This document shows positions 23,655 to 31,621 of a stretch of 64,000 bases of DNA, piece by piece. Below the pieces are notes generated by a model. That model was not told the DNA's origin. It was given only the letters and a program-made list of their open reading frames with translations, and made no database searches. Each line of letters starts with the position of its first letter. Positions within the stretch are counted from its first letter, which is position 1. The stretch spans positions 1-64,000 of the forward strand of contig NZ_JADLQL010000001.1 of assembly GCF_015477805.1 (NCBI RefSeq), in the 5' to 3' direction. This DNA is from Nocardia flavorosea. GTDB lineage: Bacteria; Actinomycetota; Actinomycetes; Mycobacteriales; Mycobacteriaceae. Both the position numbers and the translations under genes were made by a program.

Positions 23655-23746
23655 TGGTACAGCTGGTAAGTTATGGACCATTCCGCTTCGGTGGAGTGAC
23701 AGGTTTCACCGTTCGGTGGTGATCGAACTCAATGAGGAGTGGCGGC

Positions 23747-24997
23747 ATGGACGGACTCAGTAGGCGAAACGCATTGAAGGCCGGTGGGGTAGCGGGGGCT
23801 GCCGGGGCGTTCGCGATGGTGGCGGCGACGTCTACCGGGCGAGCGCAACCGTGGACATGGTCACCGCAGGGTTCGGTAGCCGGAACCGGTTCCGGCGCCG
23901 ACCCGATGACGGTCTGGGACCCCGAGGCCGACGAACTGGTCGCCGGGCTGATCGACCGGGGCGAAGTACCCAGGATCAACGACGCGTTGCGAACCTGGAC
24001 CAAGAACGGACAACCCCTGCCCGCCGGTTTGCCGCCGGAACTGCGGGACTTCATGGAGTACGCCCGGCAACTGCCGCAGTGGACCGATCCGGCCAAGCTG
24101 ACCACCGCCATCGAGTTCAACAAGAAGCGCGGACTGTATCTCGGTGTGCTGTACGGGTTCGCCAGCGGGATGATGAGCACCGTCATCCCCAAGGAAGCTC
24201 GCGCGGTCTACTACTCCAAAGGCGGGCACGATCTCGAGGACCGGATCTCCAAAACCGCCAAACTCGGCTACGACATCGGCAGTAACAACGCCTACGCCCC
24301 CGACGGTGAAATGATCGTCACCTGCGTCAAGACCCGGCTGGTGCACGCGGCGGTGCGCCACCTCCTGCCGCAGTCACCGCACTGGGCGCACTCCGCCGCG
24401 GAAGACATCCCGATCAGCCAGAACGACATCATGGTCACCTGGCACAGCCTTCCCACGACCGTCATGAAACATCTGACCAATTGGAAAGTGCCGATCCCGG
24501 TACACGAATCGGCGGCATTCCTGCACTCCTGGCAGGTGGCGGGACATATGCTCGGCGTTCGCGACGAATACATCCCGAAATCGTGGCCGGAAGCCGACTC
24601 CCAGGCGGCGCAGGTCCTCGATCCGATCCTGGCGCCGACGCCCGAAGGGATCAAACTGGCCGACCGGTTGCTCAGCTTGGGCGCCAATATCGACCTCACC
24701 ATCCTCAGCAAGCCTGTTCTCGGCGCATTCACCCGCTTCCTGCTCGGCGACCGGATCGCCGACGGCCTGCACATTCCCCGGGAACCGGTTTGGGATCCGC
24801 TGCTCCGGTTCAGCTGGGGCCCGTTCATCGCCGTACGCGAGGGCATCCTCACCGCCGTTCCGCCGGCTGCCGATCCCTATTGGTTGCTCGACGAATTCCT
24901 CCGCAAGGCCGCCCTGATGTATCTGTCCGAACTGCGGATGCCGATCAGCATCGAAATTCCCACCATGAACCGCGATATGAGCGTGCCGCCGCGCTGA
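23747..24997 (+). CDS. lcp: Latex-clearing protein, Tat-exported rubber oxygenase
   Basis: The product is 416 residues from ATG at 23747 (GAGGAG upstream). The Tat signal [20 protein letters not shown] matches the exported b-type haem rubber oxygenases. The sequence belongs to the oxygenase MpaB/DUF2236 group. Residues named in Lcp of Streptomyces K30 are all present with an offset of two: R166, K169 and T170 ([12 protein letters not shown]) and the axial haem ligand H200 ([11 protein letters not shown]). Total length also matches (about 407 in K30). Lcp cleaves cis-1,4-polyisoprene to oligo-isoprenoids with aldehyde and ketone ends. A truncated haemoglobin gene follows after 22 bp. Confidence 0.85.
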
Positions 24998-25019: not shown

Positions 25020-25424
25020 ATGTCATCCTCCGTATCGTCCGGGTCCGCGCCGGACCCGGCCGCGGCTGCGCCGATCTATGAGCGGATCGGCGGCCGGGAA
25101 GCCCTGGAGGCCGTGGTCGAGGACTTCTACGAGCGTGTCCTCGCCGACGAAGTCCTACTGCCGTTCTTCACCGGTATCAACATGTCCCGGATGAAAGGCC
25201 GGCAGGTCGAGTTCTTCGCCGCGGCTCTCGGCGGTCCCGATCCTTATATCGGGGCCCCGATGAAACAGGTACACCAGGGCCGCGGTATCATCCGCTATCA
25301 CTTCGACCTGGTTGCCTGCCACCTCACCGATGCGCTGACCGGCGCCGGCGTGCCGTCGGACCTGGTCGCCGAGATCATCGTCGCGGTATCGCCGCTGGCC
25401 GACGAGATCGCGTCGAATTCGTGA
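25020..25424 (+). CDS. glbN: Truncated haemoglobin, group I (trHbN)
   Basis: The product is 134 residues. The pattern [47 protein letters not shown] fits group I truncated globins: B10 Tyr is Y37 and the proximal F8 His is H85. A 15-residue Ser/Ala/Pro-rich leader precedes the globin core and is not a signal peptide. The known mycobacterial homologue dioxygenates NO and binds O2. Its tight linkage to the haem-dependent lcp gene (22 bp) suggests co-transcription and a role in oxygen supply or protection, which is inference. Confidence 0.9.
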
Positions 25425-27808: not shown

Positions 27809-29011
27809 TCAGCGGGTGGCGATGATCGCCGAACCGTGGCCGAAGAGGCCCTGGTTCACCGCGATACCCGTCCGGGCATTTTCCACCTGGCGGCCGTCGG
27901 CTTCGCCGCGCAGCTGCCAGGTGAGCTCGCAGACCTGCGCGATGGCCTGCGCGGGAATGGCTTCGCCGAAGCAGGCCAGTCCACCGCTGGGGTTGACCGG
28001 TATCCGCCCGCCCAAGGTGGTGGCGCCGCTGCGCAGCAGCTCCTCCGCACCGCCGATCTCGCAGAGCCCGATGTCCTCGTACCAGTCCAGTTCCAATGCG
28101 GTGGACAGGTCGTACACTTCGGCGAGCGACAGATCGGCAGGACCGATCCCGGCTTCCTCGTACGCGGCGTGTGCGACGGCGGAACGGAATTCGCGCGGTG
28201 GCGGCTGGACGGCCACGGCGGAATCCGTCGCGAAATCCGGCAGGTCGATCACGGTTTTCGGGAATGTCGGCGTCACCGTCGACAGTGCCCGGATCCGGAC
28301 CGGGTCGGTGACACCGTGGCGGCGCGCGTATTCCATCGATGTCAGCACGAGTGCCGCGCCGCCGTCACTGGTGGCGCAGATGTCCAGCAGGCGCAGCGGG
28401 TCCGAGACGACCGCCGAGGCCGCGACCTCTTCGGCCGAGACCTCCTTTCGGTACCGGGCATACGGGTTGTTCAGGCCGTGCTTGGCGTTCTTCACCTTGA
28501 CCGCGGCGAAATCGTCGAGCGTGGCGCCGTGCAACGCCATCCGCCGGCGGGCGTACAGCGCGAAATAGATGGGGTTGGTCGCGCCGAGCAGATGGAAACG
28601 CAACCAGTCGGGATCGTCGCGGCGTTCCCCGCCGACCGGCTGGAAGAATCCTTTCGGGGTGGCGTCCGCGCCCACCACCAGCGCTACATCGCACAACCCG
28701 GCCAGAATCTGGGCGCGCGCGTTGGCAACGGCCTGGGCACCCGACGCGCAGGCGGCGTAGCTACTGGAGATCCGCGCCCCGGACCAGCCCAGCGCCTGGG
28801 CGAACGTCGCACCGGAGACGAACCCGGGGTATCCGTTGCGGATGGTGTCGGCGCCGGCGATATAGCCGACGTCGCGGTGGTCCACGCCCGCATCGGCCAG
28901 CGCCGCCCGTGCCGCGACCAGACCGTACTCGACGAAGTTACGTCCCCATTTGCCCCACTGGTGCATACCCGCACCGAGAACGGCGATATCGCGGTCATTC
29001 GACTCAGGCAT
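27809..29011 (-). CDS. Thiolase-like lipid-transfer (SCP-x/Ltp) protein
   Basis: The product is 400 residues, the length of the actinobacterial Ltp thiolases. The nucleophilic Cys is C88 in SSSYAACASGAQAVANARAQ. The later part reads AEVYDLSTALELDWYEDIGL, NPSGGLACFGEAIPAQAIAQ and NQGLFGHGSAIIATR. The GHP His motif of ordinary degradative thiolases is replaced by GEA, as in Ltp-type proteins associated with steroid or branched-chain degradation. It probably cleaves a beta-keto or aldol CoA intermediate together with the DUF35 protein. The two genes overlap by 8 bp, and a KstR-like box precedes the pair. Confidence 0.85.
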   Translation of the reverse strand: MPESNDRDIAVLGAGMHQWGKWGRNFVEYGLVAARAALADAGVDHRDVGYIAGADTIRNGYPGFVSGATFAQALGWSGARISSSYAACASGAQAVANARAQILAGLCDVALVVGADATPKGFFQPVGGERRDDPDWLRFHLLGATNPIYFALYARRRMALHGATLDDFAAVKVKNAKHGLNNPYARYRKEVSAEEVAASAVVSDPLRLLDICATSDGGAALVLTSMEYARRHGVTDPVRIRALSTVTPTFPKTVIDLPDFATDSAVAVQPPPREFRSAVAHAAYEEAGIGPADLSLAEVYDLSTALELDWYEDIGLCEIGGAEELLRSGATTLGGRIPVNPSGGLACFGEAIPAQAIAQVCELTWQLRGEADGRQVENARTGIAVNQGLFGHGSAIIATR

Positions 29012-29450
29012 CGACCGGCCTCCACATCCACACCGTATGCTCCGCTTCCTCGTCTTCGTACAGCACGCCGAGGGTCAATTCGACCGGCATGCCGACGGCC
29101 AGATCGTCCACCGTGAGACCACGCACCACCTGCCCGAGAATCACCATCTGCTCGACCTCCAGTTCCACCGCCGCGACGACGTACGGCTCGAACGGTTCGG
29201 GCGAGACATACGGCGGTGGCGGCTTGTACCGGGCGTCCGCATACGACCAGATCCGGCCGCGCGTGGAGAACAGGTACTCGGCGAGTTCGGAGCCGTCCTT
29301 CGGGCCGGTGCACTGCGGGTTCCGGCAGGCCAGCGTGTTCCGTGGGAAGTACGGCGTGCCGCAGGTGGTGCAGCGACTTCCCTTCAAGCGCACCGTGCCG
29401 TCATCCGCGGTGAACCAGTCGGCCACGGCGGGGCGTTGTTCTTTCTGCAC
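29004..29450 (-). CDS. DUF35/OB-fold zinc-ribbon partner of thiolase
   Basis: The product is 148 residues from GTG at 29450 (QKEQRPAVADWFTADDGTVR). An N-terminal rubredoxin-like zinc ribbon has C27, C30, C42 and C47 (CTTCG ... CRNPQC), followed by an OB fold (GRIWSYADARYKPPPPYVSP, VEQMVILGQVVRGLTVDDL). In steroid side-chain degradation, DUF35 proteins form a complex with an Ltp aldolase/thiolase and stabilise the acyl-CoA. Gene overlap with the thiolase supports a physical partnership. It is divergent from the EF-G-like relic. Confidence 0.88.
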   Translation of the reverse strand: MQKEQRPAVADWFTADDGTVRLKGSRCTTCGTPYFPRNTLACRNPQCTGPKDGSELAEYLFSTRGRIWSYADARYKPPPPYVSPEPFEPYVVAAVELEVEQMVILGQVVRGLTVDDLAVGMPVELTLGVLYEDEEAEHTVWMWRPVDA

Positions 29451-29464
29451 AAACCCGACCGTAT

Positions 29465-29478
29465 AGGAACACGTTCTA
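29465..29478. promoter_or_regulatory. KstR-like operator
   Basis: AGGAACACGTTCTA matches the KstR consensus TnnAACnnGTTnnA at every fixed position except the first. It lies 15-28 bp upstream of the DUF35 start codon, where a repressor would block the promoter. KstR controls cholesterol catabolism in mycobacteria and rhodococci. Binding is inferred from the motif. Confidence 0.5.
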
Positions 29479-29580
29479 CTTTGGGTTCGAAACCCACTCC
29501 ATGGGAGTGCGACCGAAGGTACGGTGAGGCCGGATCGGGAGGTAACGGCCTTCTCGAGTCGATCTGGAGTACCACACACG

Positions 29581-30369
29581 ATGGGCAGCGAAGTCATCGA
29601 ACCGCAGTCGATCCGCAACGTCACGGTCGTCGGGGATCCCGATGCGACCACACGAGTCGTGCACCGCCTGCTCCGCGATCTCACCCGGACCGGGACCGGC
29701 GTGCCGGGCACGGTCCACTGGACCACCGACCGCACCGAGCACACGATCCGTCTCGCCGAGTTGTCGAGCCAGGCCCCCATCGCTGTCCTGGAACGGTCCA
29801 TCCGGGTTGCCGACGGTCTGATAGCGGTCCTGGACGCCGCCGCGAAACGCGACTCACGCCTCGAGACGGCGCTGCGCATCGCCGACGATCACCAGGTCGC
29901 CCGGCTGTGCCTGGTGACCGGCCTCGACGATCCCGTTGCCGACTTCGGCCGCTGCGTCCGGATGGTCGCGGACGCGCACGGGGCCGCTCCGGTGGCGCTG
30001 CAGATCCCGCACGGCACCGGCACCGGTTTCGACGGTGCCGTCGATCTGATCTCGATGCGGGAGTCCGGCCGGCAGGCCCCCGGCACTGCCGGCGACCGAC
30101 CGAATATCGCGGGGGAGTGGTACCGCGACCTCGTGGACACTGTCACGGATCCGGACGACAGATATTCCGGCGGCGTTCCCGGAGTGTGGACGATCCCGGC
30201 CGGCCGATTGCACGACCGCCTCCGCTACCTCGCCCGTATCGGCGATATCGTCCCGGTCCTGTGCGATACGACGCCGCGGCGGCATATCGCCCCGATTCTG
30301 GACGCCATCGTCCGCTACCTGCCATCACCGCTGCATGTCTGCCAGCCGGAACACGTCCTCGACTATTGA
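29581..30369 (+). CDS. EF-G domain-I-only protein with no GTPase motifs
   Basis: The product is 262 residues from ATG at 29581. It aligns along the whole G domain of translation factor EF-G and then stops where domain II would begin. Matching blocks are IRNVTVVGDPDATTRVVHRL, VLERSIRVADGLIAVLDAAA, ETALRIADDHQVARLCLVTG, DFGRCVRMVADAHGAAPVAL, FDGAVDLISM, DIVPVLCDTT and ILDAIVRYLPSPL. All nucleotide motifs are lost: the P-loop AHIDAGKTT is GDPDATT (Gly-Lys deleted), DTPGH is absent, NKMD is TGLD, and the SA(L/F)K region is DTTPR. It is likely a pseudo-GTPase that binds a partner rather than GTP. It lies divergent from the DUF35-thiolase operon. Confidence 0.8.
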   Translation: MGSEVIEPQSIRNVTVVGDPDATTRVVHRLLRDLTRTGTGVPGTVHWTTDRTEHTIRLAELSSQAPIAVLERSIRVADGLIAVLDAAAKRDSRLETALRIADDHQVARLCLVTGLDDPVADFGRCVRMVADAHGAAPVALQIPHGTGTGFDGAVDLISMRESGRQAPGTAGDRPNIAGEWYRDLVDTVTDPDDRYSGGVPGVWTIPAGRLHDRLRYLARIGDIVPVLCDTTPRRHIAPILDAIVRYLPSPLHVCQPEHVLDY

Positions 30370-30629: not shown

Positions 30630-31430
30630 CTACACCGGCTTGCGGCCGACTGCCGCGTACAAGGGCAGGATGCGGTCGTAGGCGGCGGGCTGGTCCATCC
30701 GCGGCCGCCATCGGTGCAGCGGGACAATTCCCGGCTCGGCCATTTCGAGACCGGTGAAGAACCGCTCGAATTCGTCGCGGCTGCGCGGCTGCATGGCGAT
30801 TCCGCTCTGGGTATAGGTCGCGACGGTGCCTGCGACGCCCTCGGGGTCGATCTCGGCGGTCAGATGCGTCATCGCCAGGTAGCTGCCCGGGGCCAGTGCG
30901 CCCAGCAGGGTTGCGACGGCAGCGTAGATCGCGTCACCCGGAACGAAGTGGGCGATCGCGATGAGGCTCAACGCGGTCGGTACGTTCGGGTCGAGGGTGT
31001 CGGTCAGCGCGGGCGCGGACAGAATCGATTCCGGTTCGGTGAGATCGGCGTTGATGTAGCCGGTGCGGCCTTCCGAGGTGCCGGTCATGAGTGCTCGCGC
31101 GTGCGCGAGGACCAGTGGATCGTTGTCCACGTACACGATCCGCGCGGCCGAGTTCACCTCCTGGACGACCTGATGCAGATTCGGGGCGGTCGGAATCCCC
31201 GTGCCGATATCGAGGAACTGCCCGATCCCCGTCTCGGCCGCGAACCGCGCGGCCCGGTGCATGAAGTCTCGATTGGCCCGTGCGACCTTTCGGGCATTGG
31301 GAACCGCCTGTTCCACCTTGGCCGCGGCTTCCTGATCGGCTGGATAGTTGTCCTTGCCGCCGAGCAGGTAATCGTAGATCCGGGCGCTGTGCGGCTTGTC
31401 GGTTTGCAGATCCAACGACTTTCCCGCCAC
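30630..31430 (-). CDS. SAM-dependent methyltransferase, DUF574 type
   Basis: The product is 266 residues from GTG at 31430. It shows the DUF574 (Methyltransf_19) pattern: PHSARIYDYLLGGKDNYPAD, RDFMHRAARFAAETGIGQFL, the SAM-binding loop DIGTGIPTAPNLHQVVQ, VYVDNDPLVLAHARALM, DLTEPESIL and LIAIAHFVPGD. The family is expanded in actinomycetes, often beside regulators or P450 genes, and its methyl acceptors are unknown. It stands alone here, convergent with the EF-G-like gene. Confidence 0.87.
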   Translation of the reverse strand: MAGKSLDLQTDKPHSARIYDYLLGGKDNYPADQEAAAKVEQAVPNARKVARANRDFMHRAARFAAETGIGQFLDIGTGIPTAPNLHQVVQEVNSAARIVYVDNDPLVLAHARALMTGTSEGRTGYINADLTEPESILSAPALTDTLDPNVPTALSLIAIAHFVPGDAIYAAVATLLGALAPGSYLAMTHLTAEIDPEGVAGTVATYTQSGIAMQPRSRDEFERFFTGLEMAEPGIVPLHRWRPRMDQPAAYDRILPLYAAVGRKPV

Positions 31431-31621
31431 AGCAGACTCCGATCCGAGAACAACACCGGTACAACACTGTCGACGATATCGCCGCTTCGCACACGGCCGC
31501 ATGTGAGGTGTGGAGATCGGTGCATACCAAGTGGATTCGTCGCCGATACGACGGCGCGCAGCAACCCCTCTGCGCGGCGGGCCCGGTGGCGCTGTCCGTT
31601 TGCTGCGGATAGCTTCAATGG

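Follow-up and report, generated by a model that had tools for sequence, protein, structure and literature searches.

A predicted pseudo-GTPase derived from EF-G domain I, conserved in Nocardia and encoded across a KstR-type operator from a DUF35-thiolase gene pair

The G domain of the translation factor EF-G (domain I) includes a subdomain, G', that contacts L7/L12, and the steroid antibiotic fusidic acid acts on EF-G at a site lined by the switch II region (DTPGHVDF). Duplicated relatives of EF-G are represented by EFG II, mycobacterial EF-G2 and the extra EF-Gs of Nocardia, while pseudo-GTPases have been described mainly in eukaryotes. In thiolase-type complexes such as ChsH1-ChsH2-Ltp2, Shy-Sal, the archaeal thiolase/HMG-CoA synthase and PhlABC, DUF35 proteins combine a zinc ribbon with an OB fold and serve as the scaffold; some of these complexes hold a third protein according to the relevant passages of PMC12329534 and PMC6996347. 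A passage of PMC3936769 further reports a direct interaction between a DUF35 protein of Sulfolobus, Trf, and aIF2-gamma, a translational GTPase subunit. Here, we describe a locus of Nocardia flavorosea in which an EF-G-type G domain and a DUF35-thiolase gene pair lie on either side of one operator.

The window, which is the whole stretch of DNA analyzed (64,000 nucleotides; positions 1 to 64,000 of contig NZ_JADLQL010000001.1), encodes at 29581 to 30369 on the plus strand a protein of 262 residues, here called EFGL, that corresponds to EF-G domain I by both sequence match and predicted fold, with the G' subdomain still present in the predicted structure. The open reading frame ends after domain I, domains II to V being absent. 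Compared with domain I of EF-G, the protein has also lost the P-loop, switch I, DTPGH and the NKxD lysine, with switch I and DTPGH replaced according to sequence comparison with EF-Gs, and it has a new conserved C-terminal tail that is not EF-G-like (residues 250 to 262, ending in VCQPEHVLDY; positions 30328 to 30366, plus strand). In an alignment of 103 homologues, obtained after removing by hand 17 of the 120 listed from 183 found altogether, neither the P-loop GxxxxGK[ST] nor the NKxD lysine occurs in any sequence (0/103 for each), and every sequence has a P-loop segment of 8 residues. All 62 EFGL genes extracted are 200 to 264 codons in length, and all finish with the tail motif. The initial annotation had read the product as a free-standing, motif-less EF-G domain I, and this reading holds across the family: none of the aligned orthologues is full length with intact motifs, the stop after domain I is family-wide, and the predicted structure matches domain I of EF-G. 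A local truncation of a normal EF-G was considered and rejected, as the genome encodes a separate EF-G of 707 residues with its motifs and the short motif-less form is found family-wide. Judged from the alignments and the structural model, EFGL is a predicted pseudo-GTPase, that is, a GTPase fold kept under selection without the nucleotide-binding motifs, and it presumably does not bind GTP. It is a real and conserved protein that falls beyond the usual picture of EF-G paralogues; no EFGL-like protein was reported in the open-access literature searched, and the searched passages of a paper on EF-G paralogues mention neither Nocardia nor truncated forms (PMC3150367).

Among the 120 protein matches listed, every source name bearing an organism was Nocardia, as was every title of the 65 EFGL loci recovered in a scan of named genome contigs. 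When the order was sampled, EFGL occurred in 8 of 397 genomes and in 1 of 85 genera (E value of 1e-55). About half of the Nocardia genomes (79 of 150) carry it, at an E value below 1e-60, counting partial matches in genomes G093 and G098 and adding by hand G015, where the gene lies over two contigs. In a tree of 20 of the 62 extracted EFGL sequences and 22 EF-Gs, the EFGL proteins form a single clade on a very long branch, apart from the EF-Gs, all of which keep the P-loop, GHVDF and NKxD; no particular Nocardia EF-G paralogue was singled out as the origin of EFGL in this set. Like the extra EF-Gs of the same genus, EFGL is a relative of EF-G, but in a clade of its own. Several Nocardia genomes encode extra full-length EF-G paralogues with intact motifs (loci L096, L098 and L109, among others), some of them only a few kilobases from the main EF-G.

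EFGL evolves rapidly but under constraint. The median pairwise omega was 0.41 for EFGL (1,889 of 1,891 pairs) against 0.067 for the adjacent thiolase (Nei-Gojobori method, with which codon bias may inflate both values), calculated for 62 genes comprising that of the window and those of 61 of the 65 loci, matches with 230 or fewer aligned residues being excluded. On the thiolase tree, the EFGL presence label switches 12 times, a count that is blind to gain versus loss on a tree with 31 of 81 inner branches weak, and EFGL-bearing lineages are basal, which makes it likely that EFGL has been lost repeatedly.

In the window, EFGL is divergent to a gene for a DUF35 protein of 148 residues with a ChsH2-like zinc ribbon and OB fold (29004 to 29450, minus strand, GTG start), which is followed by a gene for an SCP2/lipid-transfer-type thiolase of 400 residues (27809 to 29011, minus strand; NCBIfam PRK06059.1). 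The pair shares with the known DUF35-scaffolded complexes a zinc ribbon/OB protein beside an SCP2-type thiolase. The same arrangement around EFGL is found in 62 of the 65 named loci; two of the three exceptions start at contig ends, and the third is a second, N-truncated EFGL copy of N. salmonicida. This copy (L154:2352-3008, minus strand) has no adjoining DUF35 match. When the open reading frames of 12 of the 65 loci were used as queries (those of 110 codons or more that are GC-rich at third positions, so that small genes may have been missed), EFGL, DUF35 and the thiolase, together with their antisense shadows, were the only genes to recur in at least 18 of the 65 loci; within 10 kb of EFGL, these queries revealed no further recurrent gene, and no hydratase, synthase or translation gene is conserved nearby. 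In contrast to those known DUF35 complexes for which a third protein is described in the passages cited above, the Nocardia pair has no conserved hydratase or synthase gene beside it. The thiolase also differs in sequence from the known DUF35-scaffolded enzymes: the SYAACASG nucleophile region is kept, while YDLS and GGLACFGEAIPA stand in place of the YDHF/YDCY of Ltp2/Sal-type aldolases. Two further observations concern less widely shared genes of the window. An unusual pair common to the closest relatives consists of a TAT-signal MPAB/Lcp-type protein (rubber oxygenase family; 23732 to 24997, plus strand) beside a bacterial-type globin (25020 to 25424, plus strand), and an S-adenosyl methyltransferase of family PF04672, encoded downstream of EFGL (30630 to 31502, minus strand), is found at this place only in close relatives.

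DUF35 (E value of at most 1e-50) is present in 78 of the 79 EFGL genomes, the remaining one having EFGL at a contig edge, while among the 150 Nocardia genomes 18 have DUF35 without EFGL and 53 have neither. Outside Nocardia, 9 genomes from one other genus in the family carry the orthologous DUF35-thiolase pair and lack EFGL; together with the 18 Nocardia genomes, these indicate that EFGL is dispensable for the pair. Three thiolase orthologues of that genus (L158, L160 and L161) likewise have YDLS and GGLACFGEAIPA. Of six loci read in the other genus, five contain a 5'-3' exonuclease/PolA-type gene (Pfam check on L158) and five a KstR-type site. We take this genus to be Mycobacterium and Rv1629 to be polA. 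The orthologous pair of the other genus (41 to 48% for DUF35 and 70 to 73% for the thiolase) would correspond to mycobacterial Rv1628c/Rv1627c, with EFGL absent from those loci, and the combination of pair, PolA-type gene and KstR-type site matches the Rv1628c/Rv1629 entry in Table 3 of PMC1995591, where a KstR motif is listed.

Between the divergent EFGL and DUF35 genes of the window lies a KstR-type operator (29465 to 29478) with the 14-base core TAGAACGTGTTCCT on the minus strand. The pattern AACnnGTT occurs in all 63 EFGL-DUF35 intergenic regions (the window plus 62 loci, a DUF35 match being required), and with a matrix made from 47 published KstR sites the intergenic site came out on top in 61 of the 62 loci scanned out of the 65; the one exception was N. 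thailandica, with stronger places elsewhere within the locus. In the window, the operator was top-ranked at 22.8 bits, the next unrelated place reaching 9.9 bits, and its core is identical to that of the M. tuberculosis Rv3531c/Rv3532 site, which is listed as EMSA positive in the part of PMC1995591 concerned with KstR sites. The N. flavorosea genome encodes KstR itself (the L173 protein matches the KstR of the PDB at an E value of 3.9e-84), and the gene, with TAGAACATGTTCTA upstream, is flanked by acyl-CoA dehydrogenase and trehalose-phosphatase family genes, an order equal to the fadE34-kstR-otsB order given for M. smegmatis in the corresponding passage of PMC1995591. A TetR gene beside a strong operator in L168 was considered as KstR and rejected because of its weak KstR match (E value of 2.4e-4), the orthologue sitting in L173. 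Genome-wide, the broad pattern GAACRYGTTC was found at 58 places and its reversed control at 4, although several of the sites in 15 inspected loci were intragenic, and a stricter pattern was found at 6 places compared with 0, although it undercounts, as it misses the site upstream of kstR. Four of the five other strict places have genes for acyl-CoA dehydrogenases, or for short-chain or zinc alcohol dehydrogenases, in their vicinity, and at the fifth (L172) none of these dehydrogenase-type neighbours was recognised. From these matches, KstR would control both sides of the intergenic region and be relieved during steroid breakdown.

A promoter-like element, TACGGT (29520 to 29525, plus strand), lies upstream of EFGL 44 bp from the operator core. 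TAC[CG]GT, which may be a -10 box, occurs in 62 of the 63 regions, with a spacing to an operator core of 44 bp in 52 of them and of 45 bp in 10, L043 being the sole region lacking it, while anywhere between 13 and 65 bp separate the element from the EFGL start codon. A single operator-element pair, at 44 to 45 bp, is present in 55 of the 63 regions, and in 7 loci the first operator lies 67 to 68 bp from the element and a second operator restores the 44 to 45 bp. After shuffling of the sequence following the operator, the element fell at 44 to 45 bp in 8 of 12,600 sequences, a comparison in which the relatedness among loci remains, so that the 63 regions are not independent events. In all 18 loci with operator, DUF35 and thiolase but no EFGL, the element is absent at 40 to 49 bp, and this absence together with the fixed spacing ties the operator to EFGL as well as to the pair. 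For a predicted pseudo-GTPase built on domain I of EF-G, this connection with a steroid-type regulon was unexpected.

The distribution of constraint along EFGL indicates what has been given up and what has been kept. Conservation is strongest in the tail (residues 249 to 262; 0.42 bits), in alpha3-beta5 (91 to 113; 0.55 bits) and at the N-terminus (1 to 19; 0.66 bits); the sequences vary most in the linker that occupies the former switch I site (35 to 44; 2.07 bits) and in the core of G' (160 to 207; 1.85 bits). In the tail region (246 to 262), amino acids differ in 13.5% of comparisons and fourfold sites in 41.5%, so selection acts there at the protein level; at residues 1 to 19, fourfold sites differ at just 25.4%, and this low synonymous variation suggests that the N-terminal constraint may be partly on the DNA. 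The EFGL of N. concava (L153:1542-2141, minus strand) has 200 residues, with most of G' gone and the start, core and tail intact, and is still modelled confidently (pLDDT of 84.3). With the conservation map, this loss makes both nucleotide binding and the ribosomal face look abandoned. Given the topology of the P-loop fold, the conserved parts presumably share the face that points away from the nucleotide pocket and leads to domain II in EF-G, and what EFGL retains is probably binding through that face.

We tentatively favor, at somewhat less than an even chance, the interpretation that EFGL is a non-catalytic partner in a predicted steroid/acyl-CoA thiolase complex, joining it by docking on DUF35 as the scaffold. 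It is favored as a third component by the gathering of DUF35, thiolase and EFGL around one operator with no other conserved partner. EFGL would contact DUF35 through the N-terminus, alpha3-beta5 and the new C-terminal tail, and, as no gene for a third partner is conserved near the pair, the EF-G domain would fill that slot, from which it may tune the stability, partners or activity of the complex. The initial annotation had suggested a scaffold for the neighbouring CoA enzymes; the neighbourhood, operator and spacing lend this strong support from context, but positions of the two enzyme-pair proteins gave no convincing mark of it: no DUF35 position tracked EFGL presence (mean of 0.24 after shuffling), and the two thiolase positions that did (shuffled mean of 0.33) were equalled in 17 of 300 shuffles, leaving no convincing EFGL-linked interface position in either protein. 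This result, the dispensability of EFGL and its fast evolution point against docking, as do the 12 label changes on the thiolase tree and the chance that part of the N-terminal constraint is on the DNA. The Sulfolobus case offers a parallel in that a DUF35 protein and a translational GTPase are involved in both, but the Sulfolobus subunit acts as a functional initiation factor, whereas the Nocardia G domain is stripped and sits beside a thiolase; in addition, the contact is archaeal and its interface is unknown according to PMC6996347, which counts against the analogy. We regard as doubtful the more far-reaching proposal, built on that analogy, that a former translation G domain no longer binding GTP has become a steroid-catabolic thiolase subunit docked on DUF35 by its domain-II-side face, echoing Trf, and that a partnership of DUF35 with translational G domains recurs between lipid breakdown and the translation machinery.

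The observations can also be explained by other rationales, of which co-regulation without contact is the main one, those that follow it being less likely. As a pseudo-GTPase adaptor, EFGL may take part in the response to steroids or lipids by binding another protein or an RNA, and have no more than the promoter region in common with the pair. We consider this rather unlikely, about one chance in a few, although the fixed operator spacing speaks of co-wiring, not contact, DUF35 bears no interface signal, and the pair works elsewhere without EFGL. Against it, the pair is found in every EFGL genome except the one with EFGL at a contig edge, no other neighbour is conserved, and DUF35 proteins bind third proteins in the passages of PMC12329534 noted above. 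Less probable still is that EFGL slows translation during growth on steroids, either in competition with EF-G or by docking on the L7/L12 stalk; mimicry of this kind had been raised in the initial annotation and has gained no support here. The EF-G domain I fold and the G' kept in the window protein speak for it, but the P-loop, both switches, DTPGH and the NKxD lysine are lost, G' is among the least conserved parts and mostly missing in N. concava, and translation genes are not conserved beside EFGL.

That EFGL is a decaying leftover piece of EF-G, transcribed but of no lasting function, is very improbable: the 12 label changes, the fast protein evolution, the internal deletion in one species and the N-truncated second copy in another would fit, but the median omega of 0.41, the excess of fourfold over residue differences in the tail, the tail motif closing every extracted gene and the fixed promoter spacing argue for a maintained protein. 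The least probable reading, binding of a steroid-like molecule as a sensor or sink, is supported only in that an EF-G domain happens to be encoded next to a steroid-type operator, and is opposed by the replacement of DTPGHVDF and the absence of domains II and III.

To conclude, if the findings hold, a bacterial family of EF-G domain I on a catabolic operator would represent a core domain of translation reused as a pure binding module, and a role as partner of the thiolase complex would give a domain of a translation factor a function new to it. The locus also raises the question of whether DUF35 scaffolds, which serve thiolases and in one archaeal case a translational GTPase, recognise G domains more generally.
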